Positions 11,845 through 52,981 of a stretch of DNA of 64,000 nucleotides are shown here, piece by piece. This DNA is from Aureimonas sp. AU12 (GTDB taxonomy: Bacteria; Pseudomonadota; Alphaproteobacteria; Rhizobiales; Rhizobiaceae). Below the pieces are notes generated by a model that was not told where the DNA came from, did no database searches, and saw only the letters and a list, made by a program, of their open reading frames with translations. Numbering within the stretch: position 1 is the stretch's first letter; each line of letters begins with the position of its first letter. Location of the stretch: the NCBI RefSeq assembly GCF_001463705.1, contig NZ_BBWH01000031.1, forward strand, positions 1 to 64,000, in the 5' to 3' direction. Made by a program: the position numbers and the translations under genes.

Positions 11845-12030
11845 CGGTGAGTTGCGGGGCTGCCGCCCCGGTCCCCTCCCGAGGGCTGACACCCCCGGAC
11901 CCCCGCTTTCTTTCGTCAGTCATCGGGGAGCGCCAGCGGCCCTCCCCGATGACTGAAACAACGGAAGGGGTTCCAAGGGCCTCAAGCCCTTGGAGGGGGT
12001 GCGGGGGCAGCGCCCCTGCATCACCCCCCG
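11845..12030. repeat. MITE-like multi-hairpin intergenic repeat, copy A
   Basis: The element fills the gap between trpS (stop at 12035) and uspA. In order it has a left hairpin GCGGGGCTGCCGCCCCG (11854-11870), a conserved GAGGGCTGAC block, a 41-base central hairpin (11916-11956, 14-bp outer stem), a CCAAGGGC/GCCCTTGG hairpin (11973-11993), and a right GGGGGCAGCGCCCC hairpin. Imperfect terminal inverted repeats (GGTGA...TCACC) bound it. Related copies lie at 13208-13428 and 52799-52981. Confidence 0.85.
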
Positions 12031-12034
12031 CCCG

Positions 12035-13120
12035 TCAGTTGTTGAGCAGGCCGACGATGGATTTGACGTCGGATAGGGTTTGCGAGGCGATGGCCCGGGC
12101 GCGCTCGGCGCCGTCGCGCAGGGTGCGGTCGATTTCGGCGGGGTCGGCGAGGATGCGGCGCATCTCGTCGGCGATGGGGCTCAGCTTCTCCACGGCGAGG
12201 TCGGCGAGGACGGGCTTGAACTCGGAGAAGGGACGGCCGCCGAACTCGGTGAGGATCTCGGCCTTGGTGCGGTCGGCGAGCGCGGCGTAGATGCCGACGA
12301 GATTGTCGGCCTCCGGACGTCCGGCAAGGCCCTTGGGCTCGGAGGGCAGCGAGGCGGGATCGGTCTTGGCCTTGCGGATCTTCTTCGAGATCGTGTCGGC
12401 ATCGTCGGTGAGGTTGATGCGCGAGAGATCGGAGGGGTCCGACTTCGACATCTTCTTCGAGCCGTCCTTCAGGCTCATGATGCGCGTCGCCGGGCCCTCG
12501 ATGAGAGGCTCGGTGAGCGGAAAGTAGCCCTGCGCCGTATCGTCGTCGCTTTCCCTGTCGCCAATCGAGGTCATGGGCACGCCGAGACCCTTGTCGTGGA
12601 TGCGGTCGGCGAAGTCATGGTTGAACTTGGCGGCGATGTCGCGCGTCAGCTCCAGATGCTGCTTCTGGTCTTCGCCCACCGGCACGAGCGTGGCGCGATA
12701 GGCGAGGATGTCGGCGGCCATCAGGCTGGGATAGGCGAGAAGGCCGAGCGAGGCGTTCTCGCGGTCCTTGCCGGCCTTGTCCTTGAACTGCGTCATGCGG
12801 TTCATCCAGCCGAGCCGGGCGATGCAGTTGAAGATCCAGGCGAGTTCCGCATGCTCGGGCACCCGGCTCTGGTTGAACAGGATGTGCTTCTTGGCGTCGA
12901 TCCCGCTCGCCAGAAACGCCGCCGTGACCTCGCGGATCTGCCGTTCGAGATCGGCCGGCTCCTGCCACACCGTGATGGCATGGAGATCCACCACGCAGAA
13001 CAGACAGGGATGGTCGGCCTGCAGGGCGACCCAGCGCCGGATCGCACCGAGATAGTTTCCCAGATGCAGGTTGCCGGTGGGCTGGACGCCGGAAAACACG
13101 AGCGGCTTGAAAGCGGTCAT
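12035..13120 (-). CDS. trpS: tryptophanyl-tRNA synthetase
   Basis: This class I synthetase charges tRNA-Trp. The 361-residue protein shows the HIGH equivalent in [14 protein letters not shown] (about residues 17-27) and the KMSKS motif in [12 protein letters not shown]. The ATG at 13118-13120 is set by the family start [16 protein letters not shown] and a GGAG ten bases upstream; the frame is open to 13201. It lies downstream of murJ on the same strand but is separated from it by repeat copy B. Confidence 0.97.
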
Positions 13121-13207
13121 CGAACGCGAACTCCAAAGGACGCCGGTTGGAAGGGCGTCGGTCAAGTCGCGCCTTATGGCCGAGCGTCGGCAGCCAGGCA
13201 AGCGCGG

Positions 13208-13428
13208 TGCGGGTGGGATGGCAGGGCTGCCGCCCCGAGCCCCGCCCGGGACAGAAGTCCCGGACCCTCCTTTTCATTTGTCAGTCTCGGGGGTGGGCCG
13301 AAGGCCCGTCCCCGAGACCGAAGCACGAGAGGGGTTCCAAGGGCCTCAGGCCGTCCGTTAGGACGGGCGAGACCGGTGGCTCGCCCTTGCGGGCGGGGGC
13401 GCGGGGGGCAGCGCCCCCGCATCTCACG
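13208..13428. repeat. MITE-like multi-hairpin intergenic repeat, copy B (with internal insertion)
   Basis: This copy has the same plan as copy A: left block GCAGGGCTGCCGCCCCG (13221-13237), central hairpin at 13284-13318 (GTCTCGGGG/CCCCGAGAC plus an inner GGGCC/GGCCC stem), and then the GGGGTTCCAAGGGCCTCAGG block. The CCAAGGG hairpin is broken by about 40 extra bases that carry their own stems (GTCC-GTTA-GGAC, and GGGCGAG/CTCGCCC). The right terminal segment CATCTCACG contains the murJ stop codon (13424-13426). Confidence 0.82.
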
Positions 13429-15031
13429 CCCGCGCCCGGCGGCGCGTCAGCTTGGCGACGAGGTTGCGGTCGGCGGCGCCGGTGAGGAAGGCGAGCGCGA
13501 AGTAGACGATCATCGCGGCGGCGACCATGAGAACGATGGCGCCGGCCTGTTCGGGCACGGAGGCCTGCGGGTCGAGGAAGGGCGCGAGGAGGCGCATCAT
13601 CGCGAGGAGCGCGGCGCCCATCGCGGCGGAGGAAAGGACGACGAGGGCGGAGCGCTTGAGGAGGGCGCGATCGACGTGCCAGAGACCCTGGCGGCGCAGG
13701 CCCTCGAAGAGAAGCCAGGCGTTGAGCCATCCGGCGAGCGTGGTGGCGAGGGCGATGCCGCGCTCGGCATAGTACCAGAAGAGCACGAGGCTAAGCAGCG
13801 TGTTGGCGCCGGCCGAGACCATGGTGATGATCATCGGGGTGCGGGTGTTCTCGCGGGCGAAGTAGCCGGGCGAGAACACCTTGATGAGCACGAAGGCGGG
13901 CAGGCCGAGGGCGTAGAGGCCGAGGACGGCGGCGACCTTGGCGGTGGTGGCGGGCTCGAAGGCGCCGCGCTCGTAGATGAGGCGGATGATCGGCTCGGGG
14001 ATGAGGAAGAGCGCCACGGCCGCGGGCACGGTCAGGAAGAGGGCGAATTCCAGCGAGCGGTTCTGGGTGTGCTGGGCCTCTTCCATGCGGCCGGCCTTGA
14101 GGGCGCGGGCAAGCTCGGGCAGCAGCACGACGCCGATGGCGACGCCGACCATGCCGAGCGGCAGCTGGTAGGGGCGGTCGGCATAGGTCAGGATCGACAC
14201 GGCACCGGGCTTGTAGGAAGCGATGGCCTGGCCGACGAAGAGGTTGATCTGGGTGATGCCGCCGATGAGGGCGGCGGGGCCGGCGAGCACGAGCAGGCGC
14301 TTGAGGCTCGGGGTCCAGCGGGGCCGGCGCAGCGCCACCGAGAAGCCGGCCATGCGCATGGCGATCGTGACGACAAGAAGCTGTCCGACGCCGGCAAAGA
14401 GCACGCCCCAGCTCATGAGGAAGCCGATGGTCTGCGGCGTCGAGCGCGCCCACCAGGCGTAGGAGAGGATGCCGATGAGGGCGAAGTTGAGGATCGTCGG
14501 CGCCACGGCGGCGGCGAAGAAGCGGCGGAAGGCGTTGAGGATCCCGGAGACCATCGCCATCATCGACATGCAGGCGAGATAGGGGAACATGATCCGCGAG
14601 AAGGCGACGGTGATGCCGAAGCGGTCCTCGCAGGAGAGCGCGTGACCCAGCGTCACGGGGTCGTCGATGCAGACGGCAAGGCCCGGCGCGATGATGGTGC
14701 GCACGAGCGCGGGCATGAAGATCATCGCCGCGACGGTGACGAGGGCCAACACCGTGAAGAGGGTGGAGAAAATCTCGGCGGCGAAGCGCCGGGCGCCCTC
14801 CTCGCCCTCGTCTTCCAGCGAGCGCGCGAAGAGGGGGATGAACGCGGCGTTGAAGGCGCCTTCGGCGAAGAGCCGTCGGAAGAGGTTGGGAAAGCGGAAG
14901 GCGAGGTTGAAGGCGTCGGCGACCGGGCCGATGCCCAGCGCCGAGGCCATCATCATCTCGCGCGTGAAGCCGAAGACGCGGCTGATGAGGGTCGCGCCGC
15001 CGACGGTGGCGAATTTCTTGAGAAGGCTCAA
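13424..15031 (-). CDS. murJ: lipid II flippase MurJ (MviN family)
   Basis: The 535-residue protein has about 14 membrane helices and flips lipid II across the inner membrane for peptidoglycan synthesis. The start LSLLKKFATVGGATLISRVF and the FAEGAFNAAFIPLF segment are diagnostic. No ATG fits; the start is a TTG at 15029-15031 that overlaps the glnD stop as TTGA, implying translational coupling. The frame stays open far upstream, antisense-free but through glnD, and that extension is not coding. The stop lies inside repeat copy B. Confidence 0.93.
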   Translation of the reverse strand: MSLLKKFATVGGATLISRVFGFTREMMMASALGIGPVADAFNLAFRFPNLFRRLFAEGAFNAAFIPLFARSLEDEGEEGARRFAAEIFSTLFTVLALVTVAAMIFMPALVRTIIAPGLAVCIDDPVTLGHALSCEDRFGITVAFSRIMFPYLACMSMMAMVSGILNAFRRFFAAAVAPTILNFALIGILSYAWWARSTPQTIGFLMSWGVLFAGVGQLLVVTIAMRMAGFSVALRRPRWTPSLKRLLVLAGPAALIGGITQINLFVGQAIASYKPGAVSILTYADRPYQLPLGMVGVAIGVVLLPELARALKAGRMEEAQHTQNRSLEFALFLTVPAAVALFLIPEPIIRLIYERGAFEPATTAKVAAVLGLYALGLPAFVLIKVFSPGYFARENTRTPMIITMVSAGANTLLSLVLFWYYAERGIALATTLAGWLNAWLLFEGLRRQGLWHVDRALLKRSALVVLSSAAMGAALLAMMRLLAPFLDPQASVPEQAGAIVLMVAAAMIVYFALAFLTGAADRNLVAKLTRRRARA

Positions 15032-17919
15032 CTGACGAATCCGAAGGCGACCGGCGAGGGCTTGGCGGAGGGAGAGGACACTTCGCCCTCGGGGCTGTCG
15101 AAGACCGAGAGGAGGCGGCGGCGGATGCGCTCGGACCGGCCCTCGCCGACGATCTTCATGTTGAGAAGATCGGTGACGTAGAACACGTCCACCACCTTCT
15201 CGCCATAGGTCGAGATGTGGGCCGAGCGGATATCGAGATTGAGGTCGGAGATCGCGCCGGTGAGGTCGGCGAGAAGGCCCGGCCGGTCGAGACCCTCGAC
15301 CTCGATGACGGTGAGCTGGTTCGACAGGCTGTTGTCGAGCTCGATGCGCGGGCGGAAGGCGAAGGAGGGCGAGACGCGGGGGCTGCGGCGGCGGGCCAGC
15401 ATGGCGGGCATCGCCTCCTTGCCGTTCATCAGCGCCTCGATGTTGCGGGCGATGCGATCGGCCCGGCGCATCTCGTCGTCGTCCTGCGTGAACTCGCGGT
15501 TGATCGTGACGATGTCGAGCGCGCGCCCGTCGGTCATCGTGAAGATCTGCGCGTCGGCGATGTTGGCGCCGGCCGCCGCGCAGCCGCCGGCGATGAGCGA
15601 GAGAAGGCGCGGATGGTCGGGCGCCAGGACCGTGATCTCGGTGATGCCGCGGAAGCGGTCGGTGCGGGCGGTGGTGGCGAAGCTGCGCCCCTCGAGCCCG
15701 GCATCGCGCACGAACTCGGCGTGGCGCACCTGCTCCTCGAGCGGCACGGTGAGGACGTAGTTCTGATAGTGCCCGTCGACGGCGGCGGTGCGCTCCCGCT
15801 CCGGCCAGGCGCCGAGATGGGCGGCGAGCTGGCGGCGGGCGAAGGCGGTGCGCTCGAGCCGCGAGGTCTCCGAGAAGCCGCCGGTCAGCACCAGCTCGGT
15901 TTCGGCATAGAGGGTGCGGATGAGCTGGCCCTTCCAGCCGTTCCAGACGCCGGGCCCCACCGCCCGGATGTCGCAGACGGTAACGATCATCAGGAGCTTC
16001 AGGCGGTCGAGGGTCTGCACCCGCTCGGCGAAGTCGCGGATCGTCTTGCGGTCGGTGAGGTCGCGCTGCTGCGCGGTCATCGACAGGACGAGGTGGTCGC
16101 GCACCAGCCAGGCGACGAGCGCGGTCTCGCGAGCATCGAGCCCGAGGCGCGGGCAGAGCTCGTAGGCGATGATCTCGCCGGCGATCGAATGGTCCTCCGG
16201 CCGGCCCTTGGCGATGTCGTGGAGGAGCAGCGCCACGTAGAGGGCGACGCGGTCCTTCACCGTGTGGACGATGGCGCTCGAAACGGGCAGCTCCTCGCCC
16301 GAGACGCCGCGCTCGAGGCGCGACATCTCGGCGACGGTGCGCAAGAGGTGCTCGTCCACCGTGTAGGAGTGATACATGTTGAACTGCATCATCGAGACGA
16401 TCTTGCCGAACTCGGGAATGAAGCGGCCGAGCACCCCGGCCTCGTTCATCCGGCGCAGGTGCAGCTCGGGATCGGTGCGGTCGGTGAGGACGTCGAGGAA
16501 GAGCGAGTTGGCTTCCGGATTGGCGCGAAGGTTGGCGTCGATCAGCCGGAGCGAACGGCGCACGAGCTTCAGCGCGTCCGGGTGATATTCGAGCTTGTGG
16601 ACGGCGGCGAGCTTGAAGATGCGCAGGATGTTGACGGGATCGCTGGCGAAGACGTGCCGGTCGGCGACCGTGATCCGGTCGTTGTCGACGAGGAAGGCGA
16701 GCGTGCCGGGGATCGAGCGGGCGCGCCGGCGCAGCGAGCGCACGAAGTTGCGCAGGCCCGGCGCATCCTTGGCCTTCTCCTCCTCCAGCGCCGCGCAGAA
16801 GATGCCGGTGAGGTCGCCGACATCCTTGGCGATCAGGAAGTAGTGCTTCATGAAGCGTTCGACGTCGGTCAGGCCGGGATGGGTGTTGTAGCCCAGCCGC
16901 GCGGCGATCTCGGGCTGGATGTCGAAGGAGAGGCGCTCCTCCGGCTTGCCCGTGAGAAAGTGCATGTGGCAGCGCACCGCCCAGAGGAAATCCTCGGCCT
17001 TCTCGAAGATCTTGCCCTCGCGGCGCGAGAAGACGCCCTTGGCGACGAGCGCCTCGCGCGTGTCGACACGGTAGTGGTCCTTGGCGATCCAGAACAGGGT
17101 GTGAAGGTCGCGCAGACCCCCCTTCCCTTCCTTGACGTTGGGCTCGACGAGATAGCGCGTGTCGCCGCTCTTGCGGTGGCGGGCGTCGCGCTCGGCGAGC
17201 TTGGCAGCGATGAACTCGCGGCCCGTCCCCTCCACGACCTCGGCCTCGAAGCGGGCGCCGAGTTCGTCGAACAGGGCCTTGTCGCCGCAGACGAGGCGCC
17301 GTTCGAGAATGGCGGTGCGGATGGTGAAGTCGGTCTCCGACAGGCGCACGCATTCCTCGACGGAGCGCGTGGCGTGGCCGACCTTCAGGCCGAGATCCCA
17401 GAGGAGATAGAGAAGATATTCGGCGACCTGCTCGCCGAGCGCGGTCTGCTTGTAGGGCAGGAGGAAGAGGAGATCGATGTCGGAGCCCGGCGCCAGCGTG
17501 CCGCGGCCGTAGCCGCCGACCGCCACGATGCTCATGCGCTCGCCCGACGAGAGATTGGGCGAGCCGAAGACGTGGTGGAGCGCGAAGTCGTAGACCGCCC
17601 GGATCAGCTCGTCCTGGAGATGCGAGATGCGCGCGGCGCAAGACAGGCCGCCGCCATCGGCAAACAGCATCTCCTGCGCGACGAGACGCCCGCGCGCATT
17701 CGTCTCCTTGAGCAGGGCCAGAACCTTCGAGCGCGCCTCGGCGTCGGCACCGGTGCCGACGTCCTCGGGCGAGCCGAGCGCGTCGAGCGAGGCCCGCAGG
17801 ACCGTGCCGTCCACGATCTCGCCGAGACGCAGTTCGTCGGGGCGATGGGCCTGTGCTTGTGCCGGCCGGCTCGCGGTCTTCGTCGTCGCCGCCGGGTGAG
17901 CCGTCATCGGGGCCGTCAT
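15028..17919 (-). CDS. glnD: PII uridylyltransferase / uridylyl-removing enzyme
   Basis: GlnD senses glutamine and modifies PII proteins, setting the nitrogen response. The 963-residue protein has the full domain order. The nucleotidyltransferase motif is GYGRGTLAPGSDIDLLFLLP (about residues 133-152). It is followed by the GlnD linker, an HD phosphohydrolase domain (LLLHDIAKGRPEDHS) and two ACT domains near the C-terminus (ITVLAPDHPRLLSLIAGG and VEGLDRPGLLADLTGAISDL). The ATG at 17917-17919 has AAGG seven bases upstream. It overlaps murJ by four bases. Confidence 0.97.
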   Translation of the reverse strand: MTAPMTAHPAATTKTASRPAQAQAHRPDELRLGEIVDGTVLRASLDALGSPEDVGTGADAEARSKVLALLKETNARGRLVAQEMLFADGGGLSCAARISHLQDELIRAVYDFALHHVFGSPNLSSGERMSIVAVGGYGRGTLAPGSDIDLLFLLPYKQTALGEQVAEYLLYLLWDLGLKVGHATRSVEECVRLSETDFTIRTAILERRLVCGDKALFDELGARFEAEVVEGTGREFIAAKLAERDARHRKSGDTRYLVEPNVKEGKGGLRDLHTLFWIAKDHYRVDTREALVAKGVFSRREGKIFEKAEDFLWAVRCHMHFLTGKPEERLSFDIQPEIAARLGYNTHPGLTDVERFMKHYFLIAKDVGDLTGIFCAALEEEKAKDAPGLRNFVRSLRRRARSIPGTLAFLVDNDRITVADRHVFASDPVNILRIFKLAAVHKLEYHPDALKLVRRSLRLIDANLRANPEANSLFLDVLTDRTDPELHLRRMNEAGVLGRFIPEFGKIVSMMQFNMYHSYTVDEHLLRTVAEMSRLERGVSGEELPVSSAIVHTVKDRVALYVALLLHDIAKGRPEDHSIAGEIIAYELCPRLGLDARETALVAWLVRDHLVLSMTAQQRDLTDRKTIRDFAERVQTLDRLKLLMIVTVCDIRAVGPGVWNGWKGQLIRTLYAETELVLTGGFSETSRLERTAFARRQLAAHLGAWPERERTAAVDGHYQNYVLTVPLEEQVRHAEFVRDAGLEGRSFATTARTDRFRGITEITVLAPDHPRLLSLIAGGCAAAGANIADAQIFTMTDGRALDIVTINREFTQDDDEMRRADRIARNIEALMNGKEAMPAMLARRRSPRVSPSFAFRPRIELDNSLSNQLTVIEVEGLDRPGLLADLTGAISDLNLDIRSAHISTYGEKVVDVFYVTDLLNMKIVGEGRSERIRRRLLSVFDSPEGEVSSPSAKPSPVAFGFVS

Positions 17920-18037
17920 GGCAATGCCTTCATGTCAGGGGCCTGCCGCTATAAAGCATTTCAGCCGCTGACAAAACGTTGCGATCCCGCCGGGCGCGCG
18001 AAGGCCCGGCGGGATCGCGCTCGCTAGGCGCGATGCG

Positions 18038-18883
18038 TCAGGCGCCGACGATCGTCCCGCCATTGGGATGCAGGACCTGTCCCGAGAAGTAGGAGGCGTC
18101 GTCGGAGGCGAGGAAGAGCAGCGCCGCCGCCACCTCGTTGGGCTGGCCCGCGCGCTTCATCGGCACCTGGCTGCCGAAATTGGCCACGGTCTCGGCGTCC
18201 ATCGTCATCGGGATGAAGGGCGTCCAGATCGGGCCGGGGGCGACGCCGTTGACGCGGATCTTCTTGTCCATGAGGTTGAGCGCCATCGAGCGGGTGAAGG
18301 CGGTGATGGCGCCTTTCGTCGAGGAATAGTCGATGAGCGTGTCGTTGCCCTTGTAGGAGTTGACCGAGGTCACGTTGACGATGGAGGCGCCCGGCTTCAG
18401 GTGGTCGAGCGCGGCCTGCGTCATGTAGAAATAGCCGTAGATGTTGGTCTCGAAGGTCTTGGCGAGCTGCTCTTCGGAGATCTCGCGAAGGTCCTCCTTC
18501 TCCTCTTGGTGGGCCGCATTGTTGACGAGGATGTCGAGCTTGCCGAACTCGGCCACGGCTTTCTCGACGGCCTCCCTGCAGAAGGCCTTGGAACGCACGT
18601 CGCCGCGGATCAGCAGCGCCTTGGCCCCTTCCTTCTCGACGAGCGCCTTCGTCTCTTCGGCATCGCGGTCCTCGTCAAGATACATGATCGCGACGTCGGC
18701 GCCTTCGCGCGCGAAGGACACGGCGGTGGCGCGACCGATGCCGGAATCGCCGCCGGTGATGATGGCGGTCTTGCCCTTCAACCGGCCGGAGCCGGGAAAG
18801 CGCGGCGCGTAGTCGGGCCGCGGATCCATCTCGTGCTCGAGGCCGGGATCGTTGTCCTGATGCTGGGGCGGAAAGTTGGTCAT
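18038..18883 (-). CDS. short-chain dehydrogenase/reductase, stress-type (YghA/GSP39-like)
   Basis: The 281-residue protein belongs to the SDR subgroup with an N-terminal proline/acidic extension (about residues 1-35). The cofactor motif is [10 protein letters not shown], the NNAA structural motif is present, and the active site has Ser in NVTSVNSYKG plus YSSTKGA (Tyr-x3-Lys). Substrate is unknown; relatives are general stress proteins. The start is preceded by GAGGG. It sits with the Nramp-like gene as an insertion between glnD and mutS, which are usually neighbours. Confidence 0.85.
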   Translation of the reverse strand: MTNFPPQHQDNDPGLEHEMDPRPDYAPRFPGSGRLKGKTAIITGGDSGIGRATAVSFAREGADVAIMYLDEDRDAEETKALVEKEGAKALLIRGDVRSKAFCREAVEKAVAEFGKLDILVNNAAHQEEKEDLREISEEQLAKTFETNIYGYFYMTQAALDHLKPGASIVNVTSVNSYKGNDTLIDYSSTKGAITAFTRSMALNLMDKKIRVNGVAPGPIWTPFIPMTMDAETVANFGSQVPMKRAGQPNEVAAALLFLASDDASYFSGQVLHPNGGTIVGA

Positions 18884-19026
18884 GTCGGCGGTTCCCTCAA
18901 AGTTCGCGGGGCGCGGCCCGAAGGCGGCGCGGTCGAACGGGGAAGCGCCGTGGCGGGCGGACGTTCCGCCCGGCGGCCTCGGCGAAACCGGTCTCGGCCA
19001 AGGATCGCGGCGTGCCGAACTCTCAT

Positions 19027-19067
19027 GGCGCTGAGCGGGCGACGGCGACCGCCGTCCGCTCAGCGCC
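19027..19067. terminator. long stem-loop after the Nramp-like gene
   Basis: A perfect 12-bp stem GGCGCTGAGCGG/CCGCTCAGCGCC (19027-19038 and 19056-19067) encloses an inner ACGGC/GCCGT stem. It lies 15 bases beyond the stop of the minus-strand transporter gene and upstream of the SDR gene. There is no U run, so it may be a 3'-end stabiliser or a Rho-region hairpin. Confidence 0.5.
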
Positions 19068-19081
19068 TGTCGGTGCTGGCG

Positions 19082-20524
19082 TCAGCCGGCGCCCCAGAGC
19101 TTGGGCAGCTGCTGGACGATCGTCAGGATCGAGAGGATGCCGAAGAGCAGGAAGGCCCAGACGAGCATGCCGACGCGGAACGCGCCCGGCCGGATCGCCG
19201 GCGCCAGAACCTTGCGGTTCAGGACGACGAGGAGGCCCGAATAGAGGAACATCATCAGGCCGCCGACGCAGGCCGAGATGACAAGGAGCACCAGCGGCTG
19301 CGTGACGCCCGCGAGGATCACGAGGATGCCGACGAGGACGAGACCCCAGACGAGCCCGAAGTAGAGGCGGCTCTCGTTATAGGATTTCAGGTAGGTCGTG
19401 CGCAGCACGTCGGCGGCGAGGCGGCTCGTATAATCGACGATGCCGGTGGCCGCGCCGAAGAGCGAGAAGGCGCCGATGAACCAGAACAGCGCACCGAACC
19501 AGCCGCCCACCCGTTCGCTCAGCACCTGTCCCTCGCGCTGGACGAAGGCGACGGAATTGGCGAGCCCCTCCTCGCCGAAGACCGTCGAATAGGCCAGGAG
19601 CGAGGTGAAGGTGATGGTGATGAAGGTGATGAGGACGAAGGTGAGCATCTGCTCCCAGTTGGCGAACCGCCACCAGCGGTGCCATTTCGCCATGTTCTCG
19701 GGCGTCGTCTCGAACACGTAGCCGGTCGAGGGCGCCGCTTCCGGCTGGCCGGTGAGCGCGCTGGTGATGCGCGGCACGTAGCTGCCCATGCCGAAGCCCT
19801 TGTCGCGGATCCAGTTGGACTGGCAGAGGTTCTGGCCGCCGCCGGCGCCCGCAAAGGCGAGCGCGCCCAAAAGCAGCGCGAAGCCGAGTTCCTCGACGGG
19901 GATGGACGCGGTGGTCGCGATCTGCGGCAGCGCCGCCCAGTCGTCGGCGGTGATGACGAAGATCGAGGCGATGACGATGAGGACGCCCACCGCCGCGATC
20001 TTCACGATCTGCAGGCGCTCCAGCATCACGTAGACGACGGGCGCCAACGTCAGGATGAGGCCGATCGCGGCGAGAAGGCCGATGGCGATCCAGCGCGGCT
20101 CGCCGCCGACGATGTAGGAGAGAAGCGTCGCCGAGCTCGTCGCCCAGCCCGGCCACAGGTTGGCGAAATAGGCGAGCATGGCGAAGACCAGGCCCCAATG
20201 GCGCCAGAAGCGGCTGAACCCGGTGAGCACGGTCTCGCCGGTGGCCAGCGTGTAGCGCTCGATCTCCATATTGAGGAAGAACTGCGTCATCACGCCGAGA
20301 AGCGCGGCCCAGACGAAGGCCATGCCGACCTGACTGGCGATGTAGGGATAGAGGATGAACTCGCCGGACGAGAGGCCGACGCCGGCCGCGACGAGGCCGG
20401 GGCCGATGAGACGGCGCATGTTCTTGGGCGCGGGCGGCAGCTCGCGCACCTCCGGCCGGCCGAGAACGTGGGTCGGGAAGAGGTCGGCAGCCGAGCCCCC
20501 TCTTGCGCTTTCTTGAATGGACAT
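19082..20524 (-). CDS. Nramp-related membrane transporter lacking the metal-site motifs
   Basis: The 480-residue protein has 11-12 predicted membrane helices and the Nramp-type start IGPGLVAAGVG. The metal ligands of true Nramp transporters are missing: the helix-1 DPGN motif is replaced by SSGE (GVGLSSGEF), and the helix-6 MPH motif by GGGQ (FAGAGGGQNLCQSNW). Transport of Mn/Fe is therefore doubtful, and the substrate is unknown. The start has an AAGGGGGG Shine-Dalgarno. It lies between mutS and the SDR gene on the same strand, with roughly 200 non-coding bases on either side. Confidence 0.8.
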   Translation of the reverse strand: MSIQESARGGSAADLFPTHVLGRPEVRELPPAPKNMRRLIGPGLVAAGVGLSSGEFILYPYIASQVGMAFVWAALLGVMTQFFLNMEIERYTLATGETVLTGFSRFWRHWGLVFAMLAYFANLWPGWATSSATLLSYIVGGEPRWIAIGLLAAIGLILTLAPVVYVMLERLQIVKIAAVGVLIVIASIFVITADDWAALPQIATTASIPVEELGFALLLGALAFAGAGGGQNLCQSNWIRDKGFGMGSYVPRITSALTGQPEAAPSTGYVFETTPENMAKWHRWWRFANWEQMLTFVLITFITITFTSLLAYSTVFGEEGLANSVAFVQREGQVLSERVGGWFGALFWFIGAFSLFGAATGIVDYTSRLAADVLRTTYLKSYNESRLYFGLVWGLVLVGILVILAGVTQPLVLLVISACVGGLMMFLYSGLLVVLNRKVLAPAIRPGAFRVGMLVWAFLLFGILSILTIVQQLPKLWGAG

Positions 20525-39286: not shown

Positions 39287-40897
<1,611 letters not shown>

Positions 40898-42665: not shown

Positions 42666-42688
42666 CGAGGAGGGAGCCGGGCAGGACC

Positions 42689-44982: not shown

Positions 44983-45201
44983 TGCGCTGCGTCAGGACGA
45001 GGCAGTTGCAGCGCACAAATTCGGCACGCGTCCTGCGGGAACCCTCACACCTCTCGAAGGCGTGATCGGTTTGCCAAGCCCAGAAACCCCGCAATCTGGA
45101 ATAATTCTTGGGCGCTGTGTCCCGGCTCGCCTTGCGAGGCCATGGCAGCAGGCGCACAATCCTCTGCCCACGAGAGCGGCGAATCCCGGAGCGGACGACG
45201 A

Positions 45202-45603
45202 ATGATTGGACTGGTGCTGGTAACCCACGGCCAGCTGGCACGCGAGTTCAAGCTCGCAGTCGAGCATGTCGTCGGCCCCCAGGAGGCGTTCGAGACCATC
45301 TGCATCGGGGCCGACGACGACATGGAGCAGCGCCGCCTCGACATCGTCCAGGCCGTGCGCGACGCCGACCGCGGCAAGGGCGTCATCATCCTCACCGACA
45401 TGTTCGGCGGTACCCCCTCGAACCTCGCCATCTCGGTGATGGACGAGGGCGAGATCGACGTTCTCGCCGGCGTCAACCTACCGATGCTGATCAAGCTCGC
45501 CAGCGTGCGCGGCGAACGACCGATGGACGTGGCGCTCGTCCAGGCGCAGGACGCCGGGCGAAAATACATCGCGGTCGCCAGCCGCATCCTTTCCGGCAAG
45601 TAG
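45202..45603 (+). CDS. ptsA: PTS EIIA component, mannose (EIIA-Man) family
   Basis: The 133-residue protein receives phosphate from HPr on the histidine in LVLVTHGQLAREF (His9). Other family segments are TDMFGGTPSNLAIS and VLAGVNLPMLIKLAS. No sugar EIIB/EIIC genes are nearby, so it is a regulatory EIIA as in other alphaproteobacteria. The ATG at 45202 (MIGLVLVTHG) has GGAG about 11 bases upstream; the frame is open from 45142. The symbol follows common alphaproteobacterial usage and varies between genomes. Confidence 0.9.
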   Translation: MIGLVLVTHGQLAREFKLAVEHVVGPQEAFETICIGADDDMEQRRLDIVQAVRDADRGKGVIILTDMFGGTPSNLAISVMDEGEIDVLAGVNLPMLIKLASVRGERPMDVALVQAQDAGRKYIAVASRILSGK

Positions 45604-45669
45604 CGGATCCCCGATCATGACGGCGCGGCGCCCCCGGACACGACAGAAACCCTTCAGCGGATCGCCAGC

Positions 45670-45996
45670 ATGAGCCGAGCCACCGCCCACCAGTTCGAGG
45701 TCGAACGCGCCGTGACCCAAGCGACCTCCGCGAGCCGGACGCTGACGATCGTCAACCGCAAGGGCCTGCATGCCCGCGCCTCCGCCAAGTTCGTGCAGGT
45801 CGTCGAGACCTTCGCCGCCGAGATCACCATCTCGCGCGACGGCATGACCGTCGGCGGCCAGTCGATCATGGGCCTGATGATGCTCGCTGCCGGCCAGGGC
45901 ACCACGATCGACGTGATGGCCGAAGGCTCTGATGCGGTCGAAGCGGTGGATGCGATCGCGGTGCTGGTCGCCGACCGGTTCGGCGAGGACTGCTGA
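45670..45996 (+). CDS. ptsH: phosphocarrier protein HPr
   Basis: HPr passes phosphate from EI-Ntr to the EIIA proteins. The active His is in RKGLHARASAKF (about residue 34) and the regulatory Ser for HprK in GGQSIMGLMMLAA (about residue 65). At 108 residues it is about 20 longer than usual at the N-terminus. The ATG at 45670 has a poor Shine-Dalgarno, and a GTG at 45712 would give the usual length, so the start is open. It ends the chvI-chvG-hprK-EIIA-HPr series. Confidence 0.92.
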   Translation: MSRATAHQFEVERAVTQATSASRTLTIVNRKGLHARASAKFVQVVETFAAEITISRDGMTVGGQSIMGLMMLAAGQGTTIDVMAEGSDAVEAVDAIAVLVADRFGEDC

Positions 45997-46139
45997 GGCG
46001 GGCTTGCGAGTTGCGCTTGGGTGAGCCGATCAGCCGACGTTGGCGGCCTTGAGCGCGAATTCGCAGGGCGAACTCACCGGGAATCGGGCGCTTGCGGGTG
46101 GGAGGCGAATGCGCGCGGCGAATTCCCCGATATAACCGC

Positions 46140-46155
46140 ATAAGGATTTCCTTAT
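46140..46155. promoter_or_regulatory. palindromic operator upstream of ahcY (SahR/SamR-like)
   Basis: ATAAGGA-TT-TCCTTAT is a perfect palindrome about 105 bases upstream of the ahcY start, in the AT-richest part of the 264-base gap after HPr. Its shape resembles operators of ArsR-type, S-adenosylhomocysteine-responsive regulators (SahR/SamR) that control ahcY and met genes in proteobacteria. The identification is from memory of the motif type, not a database match. Confidence 0.5.
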
Positions 46156-46260
46156 ATCATTTTTGGCGTTCTCCTGTTAGGTCTGCCGCAGCATTTCGGC
46201 CGCGGACCAGGCGACGCTCGCAGGCGCGCCTCTCCCGGCCCACGAGCAGGAGAGCGCAGC

Positions 46261-47661
46261 ATGACGGCCACCGCCGACTACATCGTCAAGGATCTCTCGC
46301 TGGCCGACTGGGGCCGCAAGGAACTCGACATCGCCGAGACCGAGATGCCGGGTCTCATGGCGTGCCGCGAGGAGTTCGGTCGCGACCAGCCCCTGAAGGG
46401 CGCGCGCATCACCGGCTCGCTGCACATGACCATCCAGACCGCGGTGCTGATCGAAACGCTGCAGGCGCTCGGCGCCGAGGTCCGGTGGGCCTCCTGCAAC
46501 ATCTTCTCAACGCAGGACCACGCCGCCGCCGCGATCGCCGCCACCGGCACGCCCGTCTTCGCCGTGAAGGGCGAGACGCTCGAGGAATACTGGGACTACA
46601 GCGACCGCATCTTCCAGTGGCCGGACGGCCAGCCCTCGAACATGATCCTCGACGACGGCGGCGACGCCACGATGTACATCCTGCTCGGCGCCCGCGCCGA
46701 AGCCGGCGAGGACGTCCTGTCCAATCCCGGCTCCGAGGAAGAGGAGATCCTCTTCGCGCAGATCAAGAAGCGCATGGCCGCCAGCCCCGGCTTCTTCGCT
46801 CGCCAGCGCGACGCCATCAAGGGCGTCACGGAAGAGACCACGACCGGTGTCAACCGCCTCTACCAGTTACAGAAGAAGGGTCTCCTCCCCTTCCCCGCGA
46901 TCAACGTCAACGACAGTGTCACCAAGTCGAAGTTCGACAACAAGTACGGCTGCAAGGAGTCGCTGGTCGACGGCATCCGCCGCGCCACCGACGTGATGAT
47001 GGCCGGCAAGGTCGCCGTGGTCTGCGGCTATGGCGACGTCGGCAAGGGCTCGGCGGCCTCGCTCGTCGGCGCCGGCGCCCGCGTCAAGGTGACGGAGGTC
47101 GATCCGATCTGCGCGCTTCAGGCGGCGATGGACGGGTTCGAGGTCGTGACGCTCGAGGACGCCGCGCCGACGGCCGACATCGTCATCACCACGACCGGGA
47201 ACAAGGATGTGGTGACGCTCGACACGATGCGCGTCCTCAAGGACATGGCGATCGTCGGCAATATCGGCCATTTCGACAACGAGATTCAGGTCGCGGCCCT
47301 GAAGAACCTCAAGTGGACGAACATCAAGCCGCAGGTCGACATGATCACCTTCCCGGACGGCAAGCGTATGCTGCTCCTGTCGGAAGGGCGCCTGCTCAAC
47401 CTCGGCAACGCCACCGGCCACCCGTCCTTCGTTATGTCGGCCTCCTTCACCAACCAGACGCTGGCGCAGATCGAGCTTTTCACGAAGAGCGAGAAATACG
47501 GCAACGAGGTCTACGTGCTGCCTAAGCACCTCGACGAGAAGGTCGCCCGCCTGCATCTCGACAAGCTCGGCGCCAAGCTTTCCACGCTCTCCGACGAACA
47601 GGCCGCCTATATCGGCGTCACGCCGAGCGGGCCGTTCAAGGCCGAGCACTACCGCTACTGA
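46261..47661 (+). CDS. ahcY: adenosylhomocysteinase
   Basis: AhcY hydrolyses S-adenosylhomocysteine to homocysteine and adenosine, relieving product inhibition of methyltransferases. The 466-residue protein has [36 protein letters not shown], the NAD-binding loop [20 protein letters not shown], and the C-terminal lysine/tyrosine end FKAEHYRY. The ATG is preceded by GCAGGAGAGCGC. A strong terminator follows 50 bases after the stop. Confidence 0.98.
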
Positions 47662-47711
47662 TGCGTGTCGTTTCAGGAGGCCGGTGACGGCCTCCGGCGA
47701 CAAAGACCCGG

Positions 47712-47749
47712 ATGCGCCGATGGCAAGCCCTCGGCGCATTTTCTTTTTT
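47712..47749 (+). terminator. Rho-independent terminator of ahcY
   Basis: ATGCGCCGA (47712-47720) pairs with TCGGCGCAT (47731-47739) around a ten-base loop and is followed by TTTCTTTTTT. A second hairpin, GGAGGCC/GGCCTCC (47676-47695), lies immediately after the stop codon. Confidence 0.92.
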
Positions 47750-47889
47750 CCCCACTGTGCCGTTCCAGCGCTTTGCGGAAAGTTATCCACCGTTTAGATT
47801 TGCCGAATCGACGGGCTGTTGGGGAACGGCCCGTCGAGTTTGGGGACATCTGTCTTTTCTCGACAGGCGGCGGAGAAGGACGGGGGACG

Positions 47890-50442
47890 ATGGAACGCGA
47901 ATCACCACACAGGACGGGCCGAATGGTCCGGTCGTCGCGCGCGCGTGACTGCGCGCGCAGATTGTGTGCGGGAACCTCGTCGCTCGCGTCGGCTGCCGGC
48001 GCGGCCGGCGCTCTTCTCCTCGTCACCCCGCCGCAGGCGCTCGCCCAGGGCATGGCGGCGCCGATGGCGCCCGAGACCATCCTCAACCTCGCCCTCGTCG
48101 GCCTGACGCTCGGCGCCGCGATGCTCGCCGCCGTCTGGCTCATCCGCCAGCAGGCCGCCACCGCCGAGGACAACAAGCGCCTGCGCGCCGATCTCGCCGA
48201 CGCCCTCAACGAGACCGAGCGGCGCGGCAGCCTCCTCTCCGACGAAGGCCAGCGCCTCGTGATCTTCACCGGCGCCGGGGCGCCCGACATCGTCGGATCG
48301 CTGCCCAAGGACCTCGGCTGTCCGGCGGACGCGGCCGGCTTCCTCGCCTTTTCCGGCTGGATGGAACCCGGCGAAGCGGGCGAAGTGGAGCGCGCGGTGG
48401 CGCAGCTGCGCACCCGCGCCGAGCCCTTCCGCCTCGAGATCGAGCGGCCCGACGGCCGCGTCCTCGAAATCGCCGGGCGCACCGTGGGTGCGCTGGCGAC
48501 GGTGCGCTTCACGCCGCTCGTGGGCGTGCGCGAGGAGCTCGCGGCCCTGCGGCTGGAGCAGGACCGCGCCAACGGCATGATCGAAACGATGCAGGCGCTG
48601 TTCGACGCCGCGCCGATGCCGATGTGGCTGCGCGACGAGGGCAAGCGCCTCGTCTGGGTCAACACCGCCTATGCCCGCTCGGTCGATGCGCCCGGCGTCA
48701 CCTCGGCGGTGGACCGGCAGATCGAGTTCCTCAACGAGCAGGACCGAGCGCTCATCGCCGCGCAGACCGCCCGCACCGGTCGCTTCGCCGACAAGCTGAG
48801 CGCTGTGGTCGAGGCCGACCGGCGCAACTTCCACGTGGTGGACGCCGCAGGCCCCTTCGGCTCGGCGGGCCTTGCCGTCGATATTTCCGAGACCGAGGCC
48901 GTGCGGCTGGAGCTGAAGGAGACCGTGCGCTCGCAGTCCGAGACGCTCGATCACCTGACCACCGCCATCGCCCGCTTCGACGAGAAGACGCAGCTCACCT
49001 ACAACAACGCCGCCTTCGCCAAGCTCTTCGACCTCGCCACCACCTATCTCGACACGGCGCCCGACCACATCGAGATCCTCGATCAGCTGCGCTCGCGCGG
49101 CATCCTGCCCGACGACCGGCCGCTGCGCGACATCAAGGCCGAGATTCTCGCCGCGCATCGCGCCACCCAGCCGACCGACGCGATCTGGCACCTGACGGAT
49201 GGGCGCACGCTGCGCGTCTTCACCAGCCCCGAGCCGCAGGGCGGCGCGACCTGGGTCTTCGAGGACCTGACCGAGAAGCTGCAACTGGAATCGCGGCTGA
49301 ACGCGCTCGTGCGCCTGCAGGGCGAGACACTCGACTTCCTGCGCGAGGGCGTCGCCGTGTTCGGCCAGGACGGGCGCCTGCGCCTGTCGAACCCGATCTT
49401 CTCCGAACTCTGGGGGCTCTCGGACGAGTTCCTCGCCGCCAAGCCCCATATCCGCGCCTTCGGCGCCACCGCGGGCGTCTCGATCCGCCCCGCCGGGATC
49501 GAGGGCGTCTCCGACACCACGTGGTCGACCTTCATCCAGGCCGTCACCGCCTTCGACGAATCCTCGCGCGAGGCGTCGAGCGGCGAGTTCGAGCTGTCGA
49601 ACGGCCGCGTCCACGCCTACGGCATCGTGCCCCTGCCGAACGGGCAGACGATGCTGACCTTCACCGACATTTCCGACGCGCGCGCCGCCGAGCGGATGCT
49701 GCGCGAGCGCAACGAGGCACTGGAGAACGCCGACCGGCTGAAGAGCGACTTCGTCCAGCATGTGAACTACGAACTGCGCTCGCCGCTGACGAACATCATC
49801 GGCTTCTCGGCCCTCCTGCGCTCGCCGGAGACCGGGCCGCTCACCGAGCGCCAGTCGGAATATCTCGACTATATCGGCACCTCGACCTCCTCGCTCCTGA
49901 CCATCGTCAACGACATTCTGGATCTGGCCACCGTCGATGCCGGGATCATGGATCTCGACCTCAGCGACGTCGACATCGCCGGCACCGTCGAGCATGCCGC
50001 CGATGCGGTGCGCGACCGGCTGCGCGCCAACGAGATCCGCCTCGAGGTCGACATCGCGGCCGCCGGCGGCTCGACCTTCCGGGCCGACGGCCACCGCGTC
50101 ACCCAGATCCTGTTCAACCTCCTGTCGAACGCCGCCAATTTCGCGCCCGCCGGTTCCACCGTCCGGCTGCGCGTCGCACGCCGCAACGGCGAGGTCGCCT
50201 TCAGCGTCGCCGACGAGGGTCCGGGCATCGCGCAGGCCGACGTCGCGCGCCTCTTCGAGCGCTTCGAGGCCAATCCCGCGGGCGGGCGCCAGAGCGGCGC
50301 CGGCCTCGGCCTCTCGATCGTCAAGAGCTTCGTCGAGCTGCATGGCGGACGCGTCGAGATCGGCGCCGGGCCGAGCGGCGGCACCGTCGTGACCTGCCGC
50401 TTCCCGGCTCCGTCCGAAGAAAAGGATCTGGCCGCCGAATGA
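47890..50442 (+). CDS. divL: DivL-type cell-cycle sensor kinase with tyrosine in the H-box
   Basis: The 850-residue protein has two hydrophobic N-terminal segments (SAAGAAGALLLVTPPQALAQ and the NLALVGLTLGAAMLAAVWLI helix). Several PAS-like modules (about residues 210-600), a HisKA-like helix and an HATPase domain (NLLSNAANF, VADEGPGIA, GLGLSIVKSF) follow. The H-box reads FVQHVNYELRSPLTNI, so Tyr627 occupies the position of the phospho-His. That substitution is the hallmark of DivL, which in Caulobacter acts with DivK and CckA to set CtrA activity. The location between ahcY and tsaE agrees with rhizobial divL. The ATG at 47890 follows a purine-rich GGGGGACG. Confidence 0.82.
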   Translation: MERESPHRTGRMVRSSRARDCARRLCAGTSSLASAAGAAGALLLVTPPQALAQGMAAPMAPETILNLALVGLTLGAAMLAAVWLIRQQAATAEDNKRLRADLADALNETERRGSLLSDEGQRLVIFTGAGAPDIVGSLPKDLGCPADAAGFLAFSGWMEPGEAGEVERAVAQLRTRAEPFRLEIERPDGRVLEIAGRTVGALATVRFTPLVGVREELAALRLEQDRANGMIETMQALFDAAPMPMWLRDEGKRLVWVNTAYARSVDAPGVTSAVDRQIEFLNEQDRALIAAQTARTGRFADKLSAVVEADRRNFHVVDAAGPFGSAGLAVDISETEAVRLELKETVRSQSETLDHLTTAIARFDEKTQLTYNNAAFAKLFDLATTYLDTAPDHIEILDQLRSRGILPDDRPLRDIKAEILAAHRATQPTDAIWHLTDGRTLRVFTSPEPQGGATWVFEDLTEKLQLESRLNALVRLQGETLDFLREGVAVFGQDGRLRLSNPIFSELWGLSDEFLAAKPHIRAFGATAGVSIRPAGIEGVSDTTWSTFIQAVTAFDESSREASSGEFELSNGRVHAYGIVPLPNGQTMLTFTDISDARAAERMLRERNEALENADRLKSDFVQHVNYELRSPLTNIIGFSALLRSPETGPLTERQSEYLDYIGTSTSSLLTIVNDILDLATVDAGIMDLDLSDVDIAGTVEHAADAVRDRLRANEIRLEVDIAAAGGSTFRADGHRVTQILFNLLSNAANFAPAGSTVRLRVARRNGEVAFSVADEGPGIAQADVARLFERFEANPAGGRQSGAGLGLSIVKSFVELHGGRVEIGAGPSGGTVVTCRFPAPSEEKDLAAE

Positions 50443-52001
50443 GCGTTCCGCCGAGCGCCGCCGACCTCGACACGGGCGAGCGCATCTTCGCCGTCGACCT
50501 GCCGGACGATGCCGCCACCGGGCGGCTCGCCGCCGACCTCGCGCTCGTCTTGGGCCTCGGCGACGTCGTGGCGCTGTCGGGCGAACTCGGCGCCGGCAAG
50601 ACGACCTTCGCGCGCGCCTTCCTGCGGGCGCTCGCCGGCGACCCGGCGCTGGACGTGCCCTCGCCCACCTACACGCTCGTGCAGATCTACGAGACCCGCC
50701 CGAAGACCACGCATTTCGATCTCTACCGGATCGGCGACGAGGCGGAGCTCTTCGAACTCGGCTTCGACGAGGCGGCCGAGACCGGCATCGTTCTGTGCGA
50801 ATGGCCCGAGCGCGCCGCCCACGCCCTCGATCTCGCCAACATCCATCTCACCCTGCGCGACGGGGCCGGCGGGGGCCGCGTCGCCGAGATCCGCTGCGCC
50901 GCCGAGGCCGCGCGCCGCGTCGGCCGCACGCTGCAGATCCGGCGCTTCCTCACCGATGCCGGCCATCCGCTCGCCGCCCGCGCGCCGTTTCCCGGCGACG
51001 CCTCGGCCCGGCGCTACGAGAGCGTGCGAACGCCGGGCGGCCACACGCTCGTGCTGATGGATGCCCCCCGCCTGCCGCCGGGAAAGCCGGTGAAGGACGG
51101 CCTGCCCTATACGCGCATCGCCCATATCGCCGAGGACGTGCGCCCCTTCGTGGCGATCGCCGCGACGCTCGACGCGCGCGGCCTGACGGTGCCGGCGATC
51201 CATTCGTCCGATCTCGACGCCGGCCTCGTGGTGATGAGCGATCTCGGCAGCGAGGGTGTCCTCGACGCGCAGGGCCGCCCGATGCCGGAGCGCTACGAAG
51301 CGGCGGCGCGGGCGCTCGCCGCCCTCCACGTCGAGCCCTTCGATCCCCGGATCGAGGCCGGCGCCGGCCTCGTCCACGTCGTTCCCTCCTTCGATCACGG
51401 CGCGATGGCGATCGAGGTCGGCCTCTTCCTGCAATGGTACTGGCCCCACCGCCATCACCGCCCCGCCGACACGGCGGAGGAGGACGCCTTCGCGGGCGTC
51501 TGGCGCGACCTCTTCCAGGATCTCGATCTCGCCGAGCGCAACCTTCTCCTGCGCGACGTCCACTCGCCGAACCTGCTCTGGCAGCCCGGCGAGAGCGGCG
51601 CGCGCCGCATCGGCTTCCTCGACTTCCAGGACGCGATGATCGGGCCCACCGCCTACGATCTCGCCTCGCTGGCGCAGGACGCGCGCGTCGACGTTCCCGC
51701 CGAGCTCGAGGCCCGCCTCGTCGCAGCCTATATCTCTGCCCGCCGCGCGCAGGACCCGGCCTTCGACGCCTTCGCCTTCGAGCGTGCCTACGCGATCATG
51801 GCCGCGCAGCGCGCCACCAAGATCCTCGGCATCTTCGTGCGCCTCATGGCGCGCGACGGAAAACCGCAATACCTGCGTCACATTCCTCGGATTAAGACCT
51901 ACCTCAACCGCACGCTCGACCATCCCGCGCTCGAAGCACTCGCCGCGCTCTACCGGGACTGGGACATCCTCGCCGACGACCCCGAGCCGCCCCGCCCCTG
52001 A
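50439..52001 (+). CDS. tsaE: TsaE ATPase fused to an AmgK-like sugar kinase
   Basis: The 520-residue protein is a two-domain fusion. Residues 1-160 are TsaE (Walker A SGELGAGKTTFARAF, SPTYTLVQIYE, HFDLYRIGD), the ATPase of t6A37 synthesis. Residues 170-515 are an aminoglycoside-phosphotransferase-fold kinase with HSPNLLW and the metal site GFLDFQDAMIGPTAYDLASL. The kinase half resembles AmgK, the anomeric MurNAc/GlcNAc kinase, and the next gene resembles MurU, which uses the AmgK product. The ATG overlaps the divL stop by four bases. Confidence 0.9.
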   Translation: MSVPPSAADLDTGERIFAVDLPDDAATGRLAADLALVLGLGDVVALSGELGAGKTTFARAFLRALAGDPALDVPSPTYTLVQIYETRPKTTHFDLYRIGDEAELFELGFDEAAETGIVLCEWPERAAHALDLANIHLTLRDGAGGGRVAEIRCAAEAARRVGRTLQIRRFLTDAGHPLAARAPFPGDASARRYESVRTPGGHTLVLMDAPRLPPGKPVKDGLPYTRIAHIAEDVRPFVAIAATLDARGLTVPAIHSSDLDAGLVVMSDLGSEGVLDAQGRPMPERYEAAARALAALHVEPFDPRIEAGAGLVHVVPSFDHGAMAIEVGLFLQWYWPHRHHRPADTAEEDAFAGVWRDLFQDLDLAERNLLLRDVHSPNLLWQPGESGARRIGFLDFQDAMIGPTAYDLASLAQDARVDVPAELEARLVAAYISARRAQDPAFDAFAFERAYAIMAAQRATKILGIFVRLMARDGKPQYLRHIPRIKTYLNRTLDHPALEALAALYRDWDILADDPEPPRP

Positions 52002-52021
52002 ACCGCCGGATCCCAAGCCTC

Positions 52022-52792
52022 GTGACATCGCGTATCCCGACCGCCCGCGCCCGCCGGACCCCGAAGCCCAGGACCGCGATGATCCTCGCCGCCGGCCTCG
52101 GCAAGCGCATGCGTCCGATCACCTCGACCATCCCGAAACCCCTCGTCGAGGTCCACGGCAAGGCGCTGATCGACTACAGCCTCGACGCGCTGGCCCGCAA
52201 CGGCGTCGAGCGCGTCGTCGTCAACGTCCACTACATGGCCGACCTCATGCGCGCGCATCTGCGCAAGCGCCGCGACATGGAGGTTCTCGTCTCCGACGAA
52301 ACCGACCAGCTCCTGGAGTCGGGCGGCGGCATCGTGCGCGCCCTGCCCCTCATCGGCGACGATCCCTTCTACCTGATCAATTCCGACACGTTCTGGATCG
52401 ACGGCTACCGCGACAATCTCGATCTCATGGCCGACCTCTGGAATCCCTCCGAGGCCGACATGCTCCTGCTCATCGCCGAGATGCGCCAGTCCACCGGCTA
52501 CGAGGGACGTGGCGACTTCACCATGGACCGCGACGGCCGTCTCCAGCGCGTGGCCGAACGTGACATGAGCCCCTTCATCTACGCCGGCGCCGGCATCCTC
52601 AGCCCCGACATCTTCCGCGGCCTGCCCGAGGAAACCTTCTCCCTCAACCGCGTCTTTGACACCGCCATCGAGGCCGAACGCCTCTTCGGCGTGCGCCTCG
52701 ACGGTCTCTGGCTCACCGTCGGCACCCCGAAGGCCGTCAAGGATGCCGACGCCGCCTTCCTCGCCAGCGCGACACGCGTGCAATACGCCTGA
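52022..52792 (+). CDS. murU: nucleotidyltransferase, MurU-like (MurNAc-1-phosphate uridylyltransferase)
   Basis: The 256-residue protein has the sugar-nucleotide pyrophosphorylase signature MILAAGLGKRMRPITSTIPK, PLVEVHGKALID, the metal-binding NSDTFWIDG and a C-terminal WLTVGTPKAVKDAD. With the AmgK-like kinase domain encoded just upstream it would form the MurNAc salvage route from cell-wall turnover to UDP-MurNAc; this pairing is inferred from context. The start is a GTG at 52022, with ATG 52079 as alternative. Repeat copy C begins seven bases after the stop. Confidence 0.87.
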   Translation: MTSRIPTARARRTPKPRTAMILAAGLGKRMRPITSTIPKPLVEVHGKALIDYSLDALARNGVERVVVNVHYMADLMRAHLRKRRDMEVLVSDETDQLLESGGGIVRALPLIGDDPFYLINSDTFWIDGYRDNLDLMADLWNPSEADMLLLIAEMRQSTGYEGRGDFTMDRDGRLQRVAERDMSPFIYAGAGILSPDIFRGLPEETFSLNRVFDTAIEAERLFGVRLDGLWLTVGTPKAVKDADAAFLASATRVQYA

Positions 52793-52798
52793 GGCGAC

Positions 52799-52981
52799 GG
52801 GTGGCATGGCGGGGCTGCCGCCCCGATCCCCGCCCGAGGGCTGACACCCCGGACCCCCGCTTCGTTTTGATCGTTGATCGGGGCGGGCCGACGGCCCGCC
52901 CCGATCAACGATGGAAGTGATGGGGTTCCAAGGGCCTCAGGCCCTTGGCGGGGTGTAGGGGCAGCGCCCCACATGCCACCC
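52799..52981. repeat. MITE-like multi-hairpin intergenic repeat, copy C (best preserved)
   Basis: Perfect ten-base terminal inverted repeats GGGTGGCATG (52799-52808) and CATGCCACCC (52972-52981) bound 183 bases. Inside are the left GGGGCTGCCGCCCC hairpin, a GAGGGCTGACACCCCGGACC block and a perfect 19-bp central hairpin (52871-52911, three-base loop). A CCAAGGGCC/GGCCCTTGG hairpin (52928-52948) and GGGGCAGCGCCCC complete it. It starts seven bases after murU and ends 49 bases before addB. Confidence 0.9.

Follow-up and report, generated by a model that had tools for sequence, protein, structure and literature searches.

Introduction

The RIME elements of Rhizobium and the ABC elements of Sinorhizobium are repeat families that were considered for comparison with the repeat described here. 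The CIR of Caulobacter are alphaproteobacterial intergenic repeats of ~110 bp, with long inverted repeats that form two arms and with GANTC sites (PMC2229807, PMC10969869). REP/BIME and the GTAG/CGTC REPs are palindromic, extragenic sequences 20-40 bp long; those of the GTAG class are associated with RAYT transposases (PMC3733652). YPAL/RU-2 and bacterial MITEs are a further group for comparison; YPAL measures 168 bp and duplicates its target, and its targets span or adjoin dyads (PMC2229807). Two further systems concern inversion in place. In plastid introns, the 5- and 9-bp loops of stem-loops invert in what is described as a flip-flop (PMC6342102), and template switching between inverted arms is described as homogenising the arms and inverting the spacer between them (PMC8604942, PMC8794818). 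Searches of open-licence papers turned up no account of such elements in Aureimonas, nor of a dispersed repeat family in bacteria whose members invert in place.

Results

Anatomy of the element

The window (the whole stretch of DNA analysed, 64,000 nucleotides of an Aureimonas genome, G000) contains three copies, A, B and C, of a repeat of ~170 bases. The element is a row of five hairpins, H1-H5, set inside complementary outer arms that are specific to each copy. In the family orientation, H1 is CGGGGCtgccGCCCCG; H2 comes in two types, GAGGGC..CCC or GGGAA..TTCCC, and is followed by the pyrimidine tract CTTCTTTT; H3 is the central hairpin, with ~19 pairs and a variable sequence; H4 is CCAAGGGCCTcaGGCCCTTGG in most copies of G000 and of Aureimonas pseudogalii (G011, best match on NZ_JACIEK010000002.1), and often CCAGGGGAAATcATTTCCCCTGG elsewhere; H5 is GGGGCagcGCCCC and variants. 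An extra right-arm module of ~36 nt is present in four copies (B, L012, L014 and L018).

Copy A (core 11851-12020, plus strand, family orientation plus) has two minus-strand neighbours, trpS, whose 3' end is at 12035, and a Usp-family gene at 11310-11786, and occupies the spacer that separates them. Its H1, CGGGGCTGCCGCCCCG, lies at 11855-11870, its central variable hairpin H3 at 11915-11957, its H4, CCAAGGGCCTCAAGCCCTTGGA, at 11973-11994, and its H5, GGGGCAGCGCCCC, at 12004-12016, all on the plus strand. Copy B (core 13218-13421, plus strand, including the extra module) lies between the stop codon of murJ (13424-13426, minus strand) and the start of trpS (13120), with H3 at 13284-13318, the module at approximately 13353-13398 (limits drawn by eye) and H5 at 13405-13417, all on the plus strand. 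Copy C spans 52799-52981 on the plus strand (core 52806-52974), including a perfect ten-base outer inverted repeat with arms GGGTGGCATG (52799-52808) and CATGCCACCC (52972-52981); H1 is at 52810-52825, H3 at 52866-52916, H4, CCAAGGGCCTCAGGCCCTTGG, at 52928-52948 and H5 at 52958-52970, also plus. It is flanked by the stop codon of a murU-like gene (52790-52792) and by addB at 53043. All three copies are located between tandem genes, C in gene orientation and A and B reversed.

The first-pass annotation of the window had recognised one plan common to the three copies and the perfect ten-base inverted repeat of copy C, and both observations hold. Copy B, which it placed at 13208-13428, is real, though the end at 13428 overruns the murJ stop codon. 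Of the three adjacent genes that it named, trpS and murJ stand; the third is only murU-like, with MurU NCBIfam scores below the cut-offs.

Copy number and distribution

A search of G000, the genome of the window, with copy C yielded 19 full copies; besides these there were weak short matches and a single partial place (L020). The supposed three-copy family thus has further members in the genome, and the placement of its copies is non-random. The 185-kb contig of the window contains seven of the 19, a clustering figure that is biased because the contig was picked through the finding itself. A model search gave at least 38 matches in G000, which fits 19 places on two strands, since the element is near-palindromic and is matched on both.

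Among the matches listed in the model search, 14 of 21 Aureimonas genomes carry the family. In wider scans, which were samples run with stricter filters, matches were found in 3 of 151 genomes of the taxonomic family, one of them (G121) from another genus, and in 4 of 289 genomes of the class, namely G000 and three weak ones (49-57 bits). Two full-length copies (L339 and L341) are present in G121, and over 227 aa one of the flanks in G121 shares 99% identity with one in G007, which suggests recent transfer. Among the matches listed, many places in Roseomonas, Pararoseomonas and relatives (L027-L140) contain the H4 module GGGGTTCCAAGGGCCTNNNGCCCTTGG. The model matched 98 times in 80 of 114 fetched loci, with at most 62 bits outside Aureimonas among the matches listed; the L027-L140 loci inspected carry another kind of element, whose hairpins follow a similar plan but are ordered differently.

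Copies were also seen towards dnaA: in G011, 8 of 15 are on the dnaA contig (G011:C2), and in G013 all eight (G013:C1) are within 1.25 Mb of dnaA (p = 0.04); the proximity figures for contigs C31 and C2 carry selection bias.

The set analysed below comprises 106 copies: 19 from G000, 14 of the 15 from G011, and the rest from fetched loci of 12 other genomes. Four of these genomes (G015, G016, G018 and G020) contributed two copies each, and each has more model matches.

Placement relative to genes

Gene ends were taken from our own gene calling. All 106 copies fall outside the called genes, in spacers that are tandem for 56 of them, convergent for 31 and divergent for 19. A total of 118 gene 3' ends face an element, and 115 of them are within 29 nt of it or overlap it (median 13 nt). 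When copies were grouped into the 36 sites defined below, 20 sites were tandem, 11 convergent and 5 divergent, while 524 background spacers on two contigs were divided into 372, 75 and 77, respectively. At 18 of the 20 tandem sites the element is nearer to the upstream 3' end (p = 0.0004). Placement at gene ends in both orientations relative to the gene, noted in the first-pass annotation for three copies, is thus confirmed and extended across the family. The 56 tandem copies were oriented 20 in the same and 36 in the opposite direction to the genes, and there is therefore no bias towards the orientation in which H2 is followed by the T tract.

The five divergent sites have no 3' end facing the element. 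At two of them the element was observed ~40 nt upstream of a riboswitch (L009, 1216-1453, cobalamin; L010, 1389-1467, SAM_alpha). tRNA or other RNA genes were considered as the reason for divergent sites and rejected: among the loci scanned, a cobalamin or SAM riboswitch is present at L009 and L010, and at L212 and L170, which correspond to them in G011, but the element lies upstream of it.

The element does not coincide with a known RNA feature in the sequences searched. A scan of copies A-C for a canonical intrinsic terminator (a GC-rich hairpin directly followed by a T run) revealed none, and identity with such terminators was rejected for these copies. Rfam gave no hit above the gathering threshold in the 64-kb window, and in 20 element loci it detected tRNAs and two families of riboswitch, none of them within an element.

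Folding, covariation and mismatch types

Copy C folds with z-scores of -10 and -13 on its two strands. A fold into a single long stem has lower free energy for single copies, yet it was not adopted as the plan of the element; the five-hairpin plan was preferred because, in the alignments, H2, H4 and H5 keep self-pairing when the opposite arm is unchanged.

Covariation is commonly taken as strong evidence of RNA function. In an alignment of 28 copies from the genus, in which 95.8% of stem cells are paired, 189 base-pair cells were double-changed, compared to 50.3 +/- 5.8 in shuffled alignments, and 15 copies from G000 gave 59 versus 15.5 +/- 3.3; both figures refer to a structure drawn from the very alignments tested, and orthologous copies are not independent. 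The count of further pair types was less decisive, the observed value being reached by 19 of 500 shuffles in the G000 set and by 33 of 500 in the genus set. H1 hardly varies and therefore lends no covariation support. In 100 of the 106 copies the central stem averages 18.4 Watson-Crick pairs out of 19; the other six, which had no centre with at least 13 pairs, were dropped, and taking the best-pairing centre favours high counts. Beyond H1 and H5, the outer arms pair within each copy and differ between copies: the mean duplex energy was -27.4 kcal/mol versus -21.6 +/- 0.4 kcal/mol for permuted arms, a value reached by none of 2000 permutations (100 of 106 copies, six being dropped).

The type of the remaining mismatches was then considered. 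When tandem copies were read on the upstream gene's strand, their H2, H3 and H4 stems contained 29 G-T and 32 A-C mismatches, whereas a small control, the acceptor stems of 15 different tRNAs present in the fetched loci, contained 9 and 1, respectively; the transcribed strand of the element is inferred in this comparison. If pairing were selected in RNA, G-U should be favoured; no such preference was seen, which points to upkeep of the element at the DNA level.

These data bear on the possibility that the element is a functional bidirectional terminator, a role also raised in the first-pass annotation, or a stabiliser of mRNA 3' ends, kept by selection on RNA structure. Placement past stop codons agrees with it, as do the share of convergent sites (11 of 36, versus 75 of 524 background spacers), the strong covariation and the pyrimidine tract after H2, and orientation would not matter, since strong hairpins arise from either strand. 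However, the transcribed strand shows no surplus of G-U over A-C, copies A-C contain no canonical terminator, tandem copies run 20 one way and 36 the other, some copies are decayed (see below), and five sites are divergent. We consider this explanation unlikely, while granting it an appreciable share of the probability.

Shared sites and inversion in place

By matching both flanks, the 106 copies were assigned to 36 sites, 26 of which are common to several genomes and 10 of which were found in one genome, the latter count covering the 106 copies analysed. At 15 of the 26 shared sites, the element lies in opposite orientations in different genome assemblies, while the flanks run the same way. 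Orientation parity produced no conflicts among 216 links. A minimum of 23 inversions is needed on the trpS+murU tree, several nodes of which are weakly supported. Between the contig of the window and A. pseudogalii, copies B and C are inverted and copy A is not; among four more copies on this contig, one is inverted, one is not, E is without a counterpart and G could not be aligned on both sides. Such inversions are invisible from one window alone, and comparison between genomes is needed to see them.

In some inverted pairs the elements are nearly as similar as their surroundings: identity is 0.93 for the element and 0.95 for the flanks in L258/L278, and 0.94 for both in L256/L276. These near-identical inverted pairs suggest that a resident copy flipped. 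At another common site (L260/L282), element identity is 0.81, flank identity is 0.96 and the stem types differ; since many same-site pairs differ in stem type, replacement also occurs. One site, L019, keeps a single orientation in all 8 of its genomes and is the only site shared by at least four genomes whose orientation is fixed; no other site shared that widely has outer arms as weak. As a predictor of inversion, outer-arm strength was rejected, for there was no difference between inverted sites and the others (mean -27.0 versus -27.8).

Sites A, B, C and L262 were read by eye in up to 21 genomes, and site E in one. After trpS (site A), 20 genomes are readable and 9 of them have a full element, in one orientation or the other; in G014 a single hairpin is left, and the contig of G006 ends there. 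Downstream of murJ (site B, 20 readable genomes), only G000 and G011 have the element, in opposite orientations; in many other genomes trpS has a different neighbour, G015 runs into a contig end and G018 is without the element. After the murU-like gene (site C), 7 of 21 genomes have a full element, several copies look decayed and G005 has none. The absent alleles, when compared as empty sites, were diverged or decayed. Several copies look decayed, which indicates that the element can be dispensed with at those places.

Relative to G009, G012 has lost H2 and H3 at the L262 site and has gained a perfect palindrome with 22-bp arms. The palindrome is built from H4 and its neighbour copied inward; its left arm matches the right arm inverted, rather than what G009 has at this place. 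Judged from the sequences, this would be the footprint expected of an intrastrand template switch; it is the only clear case found.

Sharing of stem types within genomes

The outer 13 nt of an arm were identical in 12 of 454 pairs of copies from the same genome and different sites, in 5 of 194 pairs from the same site, and in 15 of 4302 pairs that differed in both genome and site. Arms are thus seldom shared even at one site, although the central stem is almost fully paired. Four copies at four sites of G017, and three copies of G019, have identical arms. Identity of the whole element was less telling: 0.80 within genomes, 0.79 at shared sites and 0.76 otherwise (the last value from half of the copies). 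Stem types common within genomes are what homologous gene conversion between dispersed copies, in either orientation and with no template switching, would produce. As the whole explanation, conversion does not readily account for outer arms that are self-complementary and yet differ per copy, nor for the collapsed palindrome of G012, and we regard it as very improbable.

Tests of membership in known classes

MITE ends, unlike the outer arms of this element, are not known to differ in sequence from copy to copy. The first-pass annotation called the element MITE-like. Terminal inverted repeats, a MITE trait, are indeed present, perfect over 10 bp in copy C and with arms self-complementary on average. 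The rest of the likeness found little support. No target-site duplication was detected: direct repeats in the 15-nt flanks scored 2.89 versus 2.93 +/- 0.07 in permuted flanks (98 of 106 copies, eight being dropped, with element ends uncertain by a few bases). A transposase of the Y1_Tnp (RAYT) type was found in none of the 21 genus genomes, while the same search was positive in 5 of 14 control genomes, and identity with REP/RAYT systems was rejected on this ground. Most of the analysed sites, 26 of 36, are shared between genomes. A non-autonomous, MITE-like element that inserts by stop codons or into existing terminator hairpins and re-inserts at hot spots either way would be multi-copy and absent from called genes, as observed. 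The 10 sites found in one genome (among the copies analysed) and the replacement of stem types at shared sites also agree with it, and the outer arms could be target dyads, as with the reported YPAL targets (PMC2229807). Nevertheless, the lack of both a duplication and a Y1 transposase, together with the inverted pairs that suggest flipping of resident copies, makes this explanation improbable.

GANTC occurs in 17 of 106 copies, at 0.090 per 100 bp versus 0.087 and 0.099 on two contigs, and identity with CIR was ruled out by this absence of enrichment. SbcD was not detected above the curated family cut-off in any of 21 genus genomes, all of which have a weaker partial match; because just 8 of the 14 controls reach it, this does not prove that SbcD is absent. 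With no genus genome passing there is no contrast between carriers and non-carriers, and a link between SbcD and the element was rejected. A lack of SbcD may allow long palindromes to persist.

Discussion

We give slightly better than even credence to the following explanation: the copies are palindromic islands, specific to the lineage and conserved in site, which are flipped and rewritten by template switching, together with conversion, and which serve as transcript boundaries. Copies would be inherited at fixed sites between transcription units, usually just past a stop codon. A template switch at the replication fork would copy one arm onto the other, restoring pairing after mutation, and would also invert the stretch that the outer arms enclose; stem types would spread by conversion among the copies of one genome. 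The role would most likely be that of an orientation-independent transcript boundary (a 3'-end barrier or a terminator), and flipping would be harmless to it because the element is nearly symmetric.

The family itself, its placement, the shared sites, the inversions, the paired rewriting of stems and the homogenisation within genomes are observed. Since both described products of template switching are seen, it appears to be the most economical agent, and since stem types are shared within genomes, conversion between copies would be needed too. Against template switching, the inversions reported in the cases cited involve a few bases, while ~170 bp would flip here (PMC8604942, PMC8794818), and conversion in either orientation or repeated insertion at a hot spot also gives flips. 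The boundary role, proposed from placement, is weakened by the lack of a canonical terminator in copies A-C and by decayed copies, which suggest that the role can be lost.

More tentatively, with confidence a little short of even, we propose a broader notion of heritable palindromic islands in bacterial chromosomes, whose position is kept across much of a genus while sequence and orientation are not, with template switching during replication as their upkeep, so that they would act as self-correcting, freely invertible boundaries between transcription units. The combination of strong covariation with mismatch types that point to correction of the DNA makes the family a test of how far template switching mimics selection on RNA, and its 26 shared loci are places where bacterial inversions can be counted. 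It also advises caution: comparative data are needed before such repeats are classed as MITEs or RNA families.

Among described repeats, CIR are likewise alphaproteobacterial, intergenic and built on inverted repeats, but the GANTC sites and two arms reported for them (PMC2229807, PMC10969869) contrast with the five hairpins and unenriched GANTC found here. REPs are similarly palindromic and extragenic, and are reported mostly from tandem and convergent spacers downstream of coding regions (PMC3733652); the present element is far longer than their 20-40 bp, at ~170 bp, and Y1_Tnp was found in 0 of 21 genomes. YPAL comes close in length and is also palindromic, intergenic and not A+T-rich, but its reported target duplication (PMC2229807) has no counterpart here, and most analysed sites are shared. 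The behaviour of the element resembles that of the plastid flip-flop, in which a segment between inverted repeats flips in place, homoplastically, while the flanks stay (PMC6342102); unlike the small plastid loops, the segment here is ~170 bp long with five hairpins, is inverted at 15 of 26 shared bacterial sites and undergoes paired rewriting of its stems. As in the reported template-switch cases (PMC8604942, PMC8794818), the arms change yet stay paired and the segment between them is inverted; those cases concern a few bases in yeast genes or RNA loops, whereas in Aureimonas the same two changes are seen in dispersed bacterial repeats.
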